A stretch of DNA of 24,826 bases from a virus. The stretch is from the IMG/VR virus record IMGVR_UViG_3300013131_000235, positions 1 through 24,826 of that record; one strand, given 5' to 3'. The position numbers and the translations under genes were made by a program. Below are positions 4,813-23,663 of the stretch, in pieces. The notes below the pieces were generated by a model. That model had not been told where the DNA came from, did no database searches, and saw only the letters and a list, made by a program, of their open reading frames with translations. Each line of letters opens with the position of its first letter. Within the stretch, counting starts at the first letter, position 1.

Positions 4813-5430
4813 ATGGCTCTAGGTAATAGCAGTAATATTATCGTAGGTGCAGCGCAGGTCTGGGTATACGAAGGACTACTTGCGGATGCAGATCTACCAG
4901 CATATGTTGGTGGTACTAAGTACGCAACAACACTTGATGGAGATGCTGATTTCCGTAACGTGGGTTACACCATGAATGGTTTGGAAATTCAATTCCAGCC
5001 AGATTTTGGTGAAGTCGCAGTAGATCAGGTTCTTGACGTTGCAAAGTTGTTCAAGCAAGGTATGCAGGTTAACCTAAATACCGCATTTGCCGAATCAACA
5101 TTGGAAAATCTTCTTGTTGCCACAGCAGGATCTGATTCAGATCTTAGCACAGTATCAGGAAACCCAACACTCAATCTCAAGGCAGGAACTCTTGGTGAAT
5201 GTCCGATTGAGCGAGGAATTGTCGCAGTAGGTCCAGGAACTGGTGACTGCGAAGAAGGTTCAAACTTGGAACGAATCTATGTTGCATATCGTGCACTTTC
5301 AATTGAGAGTGTAACAGTATCTGCAAAGCGTGATGAGGCTACAATGTTTGAAGTTTCATTCCGTCTGCTTCCAAACGATAACGGCTCTTATGGTAAGATC
5401 GTTGATCGTACAGTAACACCAACACCATAA
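4813..5430 (+). CDS. Major tail (tube) protein
   Basis: This 205-residue protein would polymerise into the tail tube around the tape measure. It lies directly before the tail chaperones and tape measure gene, and its length is normal for the family. The N-terminus (residues 1-20, LGNSSNIIVGAAQVWVYEG) and the pattern of strands around one helix (residues 69-85, AVDQVLDVAKLFKQGM) fit the tube fold, as does the late strand region ending MFEVSFRLLPNDNGSYGKI. The start has GAGGTGA at 4801-4807 with good spacing. All seven Arg codons are CGT or CGA and none is AGA; together with the flanking hairpins at 4744 and 5449 this marks a highly expressed, insulated gene like the capsid gene. Confidence 0.8.
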   Translation: MALGNSSNIIVGAAQVWVYEGLLADADLPAYVGGTKYATTLDGDADFRNVGYTMNGLEIQFQPDFGEVAVDQVLDVAKLFKQGMQVNLNTAFAESTLENLLVATAGSDSDLSTVSGNPTLNLKAGTLGECPIERGIVAVGPGTGDCEEGSNLERIYVAYRALSIESVTVSAKRDEATMFEVSFRLLPNDNGSYGKIVDRTVTPTP

Positions 5431-5448
5431 TACAACTTAATAATACAG

Positions 5449-5482
5449 AAGGCCCACGACCCTTGAAAGTCTGGGCCTTTCT
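5449..5482 (+). terminator. Rho-independent terminator after the major tail gene
   Basis: AAGGCCCA (5449-5456) pairs perfectly with TGGGCCTT (5472-5479), with a 15-base loop, and TCTGTTT follows. It lies 18 bases after the major tail stop codon. A promoter follows within ten bases, so the tube gene is insulated from the chaperone and tape measure message. Confidence 0.7.
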
Positions 5483-5485
5483 GTT

Positions 5486-5494
5486 TGGTATAAT
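5486..5494 (+). promoter_or_regulatory. Extended -10 promoter giving a probable leaderless transcript
   Basis: TGGTATAAT has its last base at 5494, and the ATG of the long chaperone starts at 5501. With the usual distance of six to seven bases between the -10 box and the first transcribed base, the transcript would begin at or next to the A of the ATG. No Shine-Dalgarno sequence is present. Leaderless messages of this kind are common in actinobacteria. Confidence 0.6.
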
Positions 5495-5500
5495 AGTTTT

Positions 5501-6190
5501 ATGCCTACAGAAATATATCAAAGTGCCGTCGTACAATTAATAGATGGAACAGAATTATATATAACTCCATTAAAAATAAAATTTCTTAAATTATTTTTAA
5601 ATCAATTTGAAGATGTTAAAATTGCTAAAAATGATGACGAGGCAATTGATGCTTTAGCAAAATGTACTGTTATTGCTATGAGACAGTACTTTCCAGAAAT
5701 AAAAACACAAGAACAACTAGAAGATAATATAGATATGCCAACTATCTATCAGATATTAGATTTTTCTGCGGGAATTAAAATTAATGAAAAGTCAGAAGAA
5801 ACAGTAAAAAAACAAGCCACAGAGAGCGGATCAAGTTGGGATGAATTAGATTTAGCAGAATTAGAATCTGAAGTTTTTCTTTTAGGTATATGGAAAGATT
5901 ATGAAGAACTTGAATCTTCAATGTCAATGCCAGAAATTATAGCAACCTTAAAAATAAAAAGAGATTTAGATTATTCTCAAAAGAAATTTTTGGCTGCTAT
6001 GCAAGGAGTAGATTTAGATAAGGCAAGTGGCAAGAAGAGCAATGCTTGGGAAGACATGAAAGCCAGGGTATTTAGTAAGGGTAAGGCAACTGACTCAAAT
6101 GACATATTAGCCCTACAAGGAGTAAATGCAACACAGGCAGGGTTTGGCATTGGTTTGGGTTTAGACTATGAAGATCTAACCAAAAAATAA
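5501..6190 (+). CDS. Tail assembly chaperone, long form (G and T-like parts in one frame)
   Basis: This 229-residue protein should coat and guide the tape measure during tail assembly. Residues 8-95 are clearly homologous to the short protein encoded at 6234: shared positions include the xLxDxTE start, the central LAKCTVIAMRQYFPE against LMDCVQIAMKQYKPE, and MPTIYQILDFSAG against LPTVYQIIDAASG. This is the G-like part. Residues 115-229 form a separate T-like extension (LAELESEVFLLGIWKDYEEL and KKFLAAMQGVDLDK). In most siphoviruses the extension is joined to the G part by programmed frameshifting; here it is in frame with no shift needed. There is no ribosome binding site, and the ATG lies six bases after a -10 box, so translation is probably leaderless. 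An A7 run at 5806-5812 falls at the junction of the two parts. Confidence 0.75.
   Translation: MPTEIYQSAVVQLIDGTELYITPLKIKFLKLFLNQFEDVKIAKNDDEAIDALAKCTVIAMRQYFPEIKTQEQLEDNIDMPTIYQILDFSAGIKINEKSEETVKKQATESGSSWDELDLAELESEVFLLGIWKDYEELESSMSMPEIIATLKIKRDLDYSQKKFLAAMQGVDLDKASGKKSNAWEDMKARVFSKGKATDSNDILALQGVNATQAGFGIGLGLDYEDLTKK
5806..5812 (+). other. Possible -1 ribosomal slippery heptamer (A7)
   Basis: The zero-frame reading is GTA AAA AAA CAA, so A AAA AAA satisfies the X XXY YYZ rule for simultaneous tRNA slippage. It falls at codons 103-104, between the G-like and T-like parts of the long chaperone. A -1 slip adds ten residues (TSHRERIKLG) and stops at TGA 5842-5844, giving about 114 residues. 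No pseudoknot was evaluated, and an A run in AT-rich DNA may be accidental. Confidence 0.35.
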
Positions 6191-6200
6191 AATGCCTCTG

Positions 6201-6209
6201 TGGTATAAT
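6201..6209 (+). promoter_or_regulatory. Extended -10 promoter before the short chaperone
   Basis: TGGTATAAT lies eleven bases after the stop of the long chaperone. The predicted transcript start is near 6216, with the AAGGAGG binding site at 6223-6229 and the ATG at 6234. The -10 box is embedded in a small inverted repeat: GGTAT at 6202-6206 and ATACC at 6216-6220. Confidence 0.55.
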
Positions 6210-6233
6210 TTATTCATACCTTAAGGAGGAACA

Positions 6234-6560
6234 ATGGCCGAAAAGCCTAAAGATAATAAGAAAACAATCACGTTAGTCGACAATACAGAAGTCCCAGTTA
6301 GAGCGCTTAAGTTGTCTCTTCTAAGACCATTTATGATAAAGTTCGCAGAATTAGCAGCAGTTGCTGATAATAACGATAAGTCCATGGATATTCTCATGGA
6401 TTGCGTTCAAATTGCAATGAAACAATACAAGCCAGAATTGGCAGATGACAGAGAACAACTAGAGGAACTACTAGATCTTCCTACAGTTTATCAAATAATT
6501 GATGCAGCGTCTGGTTTCCAGAATGCAGAAGCATCAGTTGTTTCTGGTCTAGTAAAATAA
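6234..6560 (+). CDS. Tail assembly chaperone, short form (G-like paralogue)
   Basis: This 108-residue protein aligns along nearly its whole length with residues 8-95 of the long chaperone upstream. Shared landmarks are LVDNTEVPVRALKLSLLRPF against the equivalent N-terminal segment, the DCVQIAMKQYKPEL helix, and LPTVYQIIDAASG near the end. It lacks any T-like extension, and no slippery heptamer is seen near its stop. It therefore looks like a separately encoded G protein, produced by duplication, that supplies the short form which other phages obtain by not frameshifting. It has its own extended -10 promoter and a perfect AAGGAGG site, so it could be made in excess over the long form, as is usual for G over GT. 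The tape measure gene follows after 23 bases. Confidence 0.75.
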   Translation: MAEKPKDNKKTITLVDNTEVPVRALKLSLLRPFMIKFAELAAVADNNDKSMDILMDCVQIAMKQYKPELADDREQLEELLDLPTVYQIIDAASGFQNAEASVVSGLVK

Positions 6561-23222: not shown

Positions 23223-23662
23223 TGCCTACACCAGATAATGGAATTAAAAAAGTTATAATTCCAAAATCTAAGTTACCTGGATTTTTTGGAGAAAACAAAA
23301 AATATGTTTTGAGATATAGGTTTATTTCTGAAGATAAAAATAGAACTTCGCATTGGTCTCCAGTATATAAAATTATTGCAGAAGATACTCCAGAAGAAAT
23401 ACTTAATAGTATTATTATAGACACAGATAATCGAGTTATTAATTTGGCATGGCAGCCACAGAGTTCGGTAGAAGAATATTTTTTGTATGTAAAGTGGAAT
23501 AGTGGAGAATGGCAGTATTATGCAAAAACATCACAAACAAATTATTCAATTGTTTATGATTTAAGTAAAACATATATAAATGTTGCAGTACAAACAAGTA
23601 CAATCCCATTAGAAAGATTTGAGAATTCTACCTTATTTGAAAACCAGGGTAGTCTGATATAA
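23222..23662 (+). CDS. Minor tail protein with fibronectin-III-like pattern (putative)
   Basis: This is a 146-residue protein. Residues 28-52 (YVLRYRFISEDKNRTSHWSP) and 72-110 (NRVINLAWQPQSSVEEYFLY, then WNSGEWQYYAKTSQTNYSI) show the alternating strand pattern with a conserved Trp that marks fibronectin type III-like or related immunoglobulin-type domains, common as accessory modules on phage tails. Such domains are thought to stick weakly to host surface sugars. No enzymatic motif is seen. The start shares a base with the previous stop and has only a weak ribosome binding site, so it depends on coupling. The stop lies inside the extended -10 promoter of the next gene. Confidence 0.55.
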   Translation: MPTPDNGIKKVIIPKSKLPGFFGENKKYVLRYRFISEDKNRTSHWSPVYKIIAEDTPEEILNSIIIDTDNRVINLAWQPQSSVEEYFLYVKWNSGEWQYYAKTSQTNYSIVYDLSKTYINVAVQTSTIPLERFENSTLFENQGSLI

Positions 23663-23663
23663 T
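23655..23663 (+). promoter_or_regulatory. Extended -10 promoter overlapping a stop codon
   Basis: TGATATAAT includes the TAA stop (23660-23662) of the preceding gene. The predicted transcript start near 23670 lies inside the AGGAGG ribosome binding site (23669-23674), and the ATG follows at 23679, so the leader would be about ten bases. Confidence 0.5.

Follow-up and report, generated by a model that had tools for sequence, protein, structure and literature searches.

The window, by which we mean the whole stretch of 24,826 nt analyzed here (positions 1 to 24,826 of the IMG/VR virus record IMGVR_UViG_3300013131_000235), carries two adjacent ORFs in its tail module, a long one (GT) and a short one (G2), at the coordinates given by an earlier sequence-only reading (Table 1). 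For GT, position 5501 is the only usable start and the only one that yields a whole G domain: an in-frame stop lies upstream at 5441 with no ATG, GTG, or TTG between, and the next in-frame start is at 5678. The protein is composed of a G domain (about residues 1-98), a linker containing SGSSWDELDLA, and a T domain (about residues 119-229). The phrog_2175 protein encoded upstream is a homolog of what is annotated as the major tail protein in Streptomyces phages, and an annotated major tail protein occupies the equivalent place in EGole, Circinus, Braelyn, and others. The N terminus of the tape-measure protein encoded downstream matches 46 of 46 related records searched. Annotated Streptomyces and Rhodococcus phages likewise have the major tail protein, the chaperone gene(s), and the tape measure in this order. 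With the phrog_2175 protein upstream and the PF10145 protein downstream, the GT/G2 pair is thus placed where tail assembly chaperones belong.

Table 1 Features of the putative chaperone locus and its neighbors in the window
Feature	Position	Strand	Remarks
Ig-domain family gene, probable major tail protein	4813..5430	+	phrog_2175, 1.9e-32; upstream neighbor of GT
Terminator-like hairpin and T-rich tail	5445..5486	+	-21.8 kcal/mol, z -3.96; just before the predicted GT promoter
Extended -10 element TGGTATAAT of GT	5486..5494	+	last base 6 nt before the GT start codon
GT, putative long tail assembly chaperone, 229 aa	5501..6190	+	one frame throughout; no Shine-Dalgarno
Extended -10 element TGGTATAAT of the predicted second promoter	6201..6209	+	last base 24 nt before the G2 start codon
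Shine-Dalgarno AAGGAGG of G2	6224..6230	+	
G2, putative short tail assembly chaperone, 108 aa, G domain only	6234..6560	+	phrog_10504, 7.5e-13
Tape-measure protein, 3277 residues	6584..16417	+	PF10145, 2.6e-27; expected client of the G domain

GT and G2 are homologous. By BLASTP, 36 of 90 residues are identical (40%, E 7e-22), and both proteins match phrog_10504, GT at 5.8e-20. The common G-like part claimed by the sequence-only reading is therefore real; its motif MPTxYQIxD does not extend to the second protein, which reads LPTVYQIID. Only GT matches phrog_10474 (residues 130-219), and its T part is in frame with its G part, in agreement with the proposal that a T-like extension is confined to the long protein and fused in frame. 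With this identity and the same PHROG, the pair presents a short and a long form with a common N-terminal domain, as chaperones of the G/GT type do.

AlphaFold2 models of GT (pLDDT 69.9) and G2 (pLDDT 78.1) consist of a beta hairpin followed by helices. The best viral structure match of the G2 model is annotated "Tail assembly chaperone" (E 5.4e-7). The HK97 chaperone 2OB9 was second among the Foldseek candidates for both models, with Z scores of 4.3 and 4.4 that lie in the noise range. Foldseek searches of the PDB with the two models returned nothing significant, and a sequence search of solved structures gave no match. A Pfam search of G2 relatives found no credible family; its best match, Rubis-subs-bind at 0.0007, was dismissed as spurious. 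There are 132 phage records that match P0001, many of them annotated as tail assembly chaperone, perhaps on the basis of position. Membership of GT and G2 in the chaperone fold is only moderately supported, and the pair probably functions as chaperones.

Relatives were gathered from IMG/VR by five scans, which gave several hundred loci that were sorted with G and T profiles. An in-frame G-T gene followed by a separate G gene was found in 360 loci, 221 of them distinct, and this order is present in every intact nonredundant relative recovered (221 loci). Neither of the two outcomes that the sequence-only reading had named as evidence to the contrary was encountered: the two proteins are homologous, and the second gene is a family member in all intact two-gene relatives. 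Eight loci carry G-T alone; their contigs stop at the T domain or a short way past it, too early for a complete second gene. In none of the two-gene loci was a T domain found downstream of the second G gene.

Among isolates, the long protein matches Streptomyces phages of the Stanwilliamsviridae and, weakly, Rhodococcus phages. G and T lie in different frames in the isolate relatives that were inspected, some of which are annotated with a joined CDS. A single G gene with T in the -1 frame occurs in Streptomyces and Rhodococcus phages, in a phage in a MAG (L327), and in environmental contigs, including L348, L349, L352, L357, L367, L372, and L384. The suggested comparison of one-gene and two-gene versions among related phages has thus brought out both, 221 distinct two-gene loci versus single-gene loci with a -1 frameshift. 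All frameshift loci shift by -1, most of them with an in-register GGGAAAC, CCCAAAC/T/A, or GGGAAAA in the G/T overlap. In the Samistivirus- and Coruscantvirus-type Streptomyces phages (L163, L166, L167, L331, and L334-L338), T is likewise in the -1 frame, but the overlap contains no standard X_XXY_YYZ heptamer, and these phages must slip at another kind of site. Tape-measure length did not separate the architectures: their ORFs overlap in length, and many records are incomplete.

Programmed -1 frameshifting is not what the fused gene displays: T is in frame in the window and in the 221 loci, and there is no conserved zero-frame heptamer at the junction. GGGAAAC and GGGAAAA strings do occur in some fused junctions, out of register, where they encode the conserved W-E of the linker; these were discarded as slip sites. 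We also considered reverse recoding, by which the long gene would yield the short form as well through a -1 slip and the second gene would be an auxiliary paralog. An A-rich stretch near position 5806 (gtA AAA AAA caa) would suit it, as it contains a zero-frame AAAAAAA with a -1 stop about 10 codons on, in the window and a few near relatives. The A7 site is present in 7 of 221 relatives, however, and zero-frame slip heptamers occur at the fused junction in 21 of 221 loci, at differing positions, when 52.6 would be expected from codon-order shuffles. Slip heptamers fewer than expected and an A7 site in few relatives speak against covert frameshifting within GT. Scarce and nonconserved as these sites are, we rejected reverse recoding as very improbable.

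Metagenome assembly or a sequencing error could in principle have joined the G and T frames artificially, given that the window is one metagenomic contig and that one relative (L156:1-650) has a broken frame, the G part of its GT being divided over two frames near the contig end, probably by an assembly or sequencing error. Against such an origin stand the identical in-frame fusion in 221 distinct sequences and the purifying selection on GT and G2, with dN well below dS in 8 of 8 pairwise comparisons and in the G part and T part alike. These independent contigs refute an artifact, to which we attach a negligible chance.

The two-gene phages have a single origin within frameshifting phages. In the G-domain tree, first copies form one clade (98/90) and second copies another (97/93), and the frameshifting G of L348, L349, and L367 stands beside the second copies with weak support (92/54). 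The T tree places the two-gene sequences all in one group (84/83) among frameshifting ones. In the independent tree of the tape-measure N terminus, the two-gene phages are one clade (99/97), sister to the frameshifting L348 and L349 (97/92), with L367 and then the remaining frameshifting phages outside this group. The nesting is clear when the Rhodococcus phages are taken as the deepest branch, although the program inferred no root. The simplest reading of these sequence relationships is one duplication within the frameshifting phages, frameshifting being the older arrangement. The T linker W-x-x-L/F-D-L-A is common to in-frame and frameshifted forms, and in the in-frame forms the slippery-site stretch is replaced by a different sequence. 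An ancestor would have produced G and, via -1 ribosomal frameshifting, GT from a single gene. After tandem duplication, the first copy would have become an in-frame G-T fusion, losing the slippery site and Shine-Dalgarno; the second copy would have kept the G lineage and the leadered Shine-Dalgarno start and lost T.

The start regions of the two genes are conserved and of different kinds. A hairpin with a T tract precedes GT in 218 of 218 two-gene loci, versus 2 of 54 shuffles; a generic terminator scan of the window did not list this + strand hairpin. Among the 217 two-gene loci with enough upstream sequence, the extended -10 pattern TGnTAnnnT was found before GT in 213, with a spacing of 6 nt in 153 and of 5-9 nt in 209, and a Shine-Dalgarno before GT in none. 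In the same loci, which hold about 32,400 ATGs, an extended -10 at exactly 6 nt precedes just 23 others. At sigma-70 promoters, transcription starts about 7 nt after the -10. Here that distance leads to the A of the GT start codon, so a leaderless GT mRNA is predicted. GT has the form of leaderless transcription units of Actinobacteria, in that it lacks a Shine-Dalgarno and its -10 lies some 6 nt ahead of the start codon. In the frameshifting L348 (2600-2680), an in-frame ATG lies 8 nt past a TGATATACT element, upstream of the Shine-Dalgarno-type start, and could serve this single-gene phage as a leaderless start.

Upstream of G2, both a Shine-Dalgarno and TGnTAnnnT are present in 220 of 220 loci, the latter 23-30 nt before the start in 186. 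In 19 of the 220, the pattern matched TAACCT nearer the gene; in examples read by eye, TATAAT overlaps the GT stop codon. The earlier claim that each gene has its own start signals is thereby borne out, the signals being of leaderless type for GT and of Shine-Dalgarno type for G2. A -35/-10 scan of the window listed neither promoter because both are of the extended -10 type without a good -35. Terminator-like hairpins between GT and G2 are restricted to 1 of 221 loci, and with no terminator between the genes, G2 should be read from both promoters. Single-gene relatives have their -10 at 23-43 nt upstream, and a clear Shine-Dalgarno in 27 of 32; as these are leadered, the leaderless arrangement appears to have arisen with the fused copy, and G2 to have kept the older leader type. 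Elsewhere in the window, extended -10 elements (TGnTATAAT) are located at 1610-1618 and 23655-23663, in or near short intergenic gaps before Shine-Dalgarno-led genes at 1638 and 23679. Extended -10 promoters seem to be used inside the structural region.

In line with the sequence-only reading, which proposed duplication in place of frameshifting and a ratio governed by separate start signals, we infer that two nested promoters and two modes of initiation set the GT/G ratio, which is the best-supported mechanism. The terminator would stop the upstream transcript, and the promoter 6 nt ahead of the GT start codon would give rise to a leaderless GT mRNA. The second promoter, in the GT-G gap, would add a G mRNA with a strong Shine-Dalgarno. 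Since no terminator lies between the genes, G would also be carried on the GT mRNA, and G message would be at least as abundant as GT message. In phage lambda, the binding partners of G and T are the tape measure and the tail-tube protein, respectively (PMC5009743); by analogy with lambda gpG and gpGT, G would coat the tape measure and GT would recruit the major tail protein. With the capsid and tail-tube genes as reference, GT scores lowest for codon adaptation among 14 window genes (0.40); G2 reaches 0.545, and its GC3 exceeds that of GT in 193 of 220 loci. Leaderless mRNAs are frequent in mycobacteria, and M. smegmatis translates them with about the same efficiency as leadered ones (PMC4633059); leaderlessness alone therefore does not imply a low GT level. 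The direction of the predicted GT:G ratio rests on promoter nesting, the Shine-Dalgarno, and codon bias. That a tandem-duplicated chaperone pair replaces the frameshift, its amounts most likely set by two promoters and two initiation modes, we consider quite probable. We favor, with somewhat less assurance, the specific proposal that in this clade a leaderless promoter for GT and a nested second promoter with a Shine-Dalgarno leader for G set the ratio in place of recoding.

Alternatively, the two copies may be subfunctionalized paralogs, G2 serving as the tape-measure chaperone and GT as the tail-tube loader, in which case the GT:G ratio would no longer matter and the start signals would reflect timing more than stoichiometry. 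We regard this reading as unlikely. Divergence of the first-copy (G1) and second-copy G domains to 30-51% identity inside one genome is consistent with it, as is the longer stem branch of the G1 clade in the G-domain tree (0.64 vs 0.24), and separate promoters could serve timing. Both G domains are nevertheless kept in all intact loci, GT retains a full G domain, as binding of the same client would require, and in lambda, according to work cited in PMC5009743, a balanced G:GT ratio matters.

Actinobacterial hosts are suggested by WhiB genes, which 13 of 15 larger relatives carry, and by the Streptomyces and Rhodococcus relatives. A search of genome contigs for hosts gave a single contig, L327 (CAINGU010000031.1), from a MAG labeled as a cyanobacterium. 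This contig carries a frameshift-type tail module and may be a mis-binned actinophage or point to an unexpected host. A freshwater origin is presumed from the kind of host and from published work on comparable actinophages rather than from sample records.

A large, diverse, apparently actinobacterial phage group seems to have left the frameshift that its close relatives still use, so that gene duplication would have supplanted a widespread trick of translation. The steps are legible from sequence: duplication, in-frame fusion, slippery-site loss, and new start signals. If this is true, control by transcription and initiation replaces recoding for the same protein pair while frameshifting sister phages persist, and it becomes testable what selection keeps, the ratio or the frameshift itself. 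For annotation, the two chaperone genes of such genomes should not be joined as a frameshift product. Our literature search found no paper linking chaperones with gene duplication. As far as the searches show, the two-gene solution is apparently new in a large siphovirus-like clade related to Stanwilliamsviridae, as are a switch from frameshifting visible within that family and the conserved combination of a leaderless-type start on the long form and a leadered start on the short one.

Among long-tailed phages, the G/GT frameshift is regarded as widely conserved. Lambda, like the present clade, has a short G form and a long GT form; it obtains them by -1 frameshifting at about 30:1, whereas the present clade has separate genes. 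The HK97 chaperone 2OB9 has no detected sequence similarity to GT or G2, and its structural likeness (Z 4.3-4.4) is suggestive at most. The Stanwilliamsviridae phages EGole, Circinus, TunaTartare, Braelyn, and Coruscant share with the present clade the G and T domains and their place between major tail protein and tape measure; they differ in having one G gene with a leadered start, T in the -1 frame, and no second G gene. A short gene with a longer fusion gene, and no frameshifting, is ascribed to some T4-like phages in the passage of PMC10885494 that cites Vladimirov et al. 2022, so the two-gene solution is already known in kind. As that passage presents them, these phages resemble the present clade in that the short gene and the longer fusion gene make a frameshift unneeded; they are other phages, with a chaperone of another lineage. 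What sets the present clade apart from the T4-like phages is that the switch from frameshift to duplication is visible among close relatives, and that the long form has a leaderless-type start.
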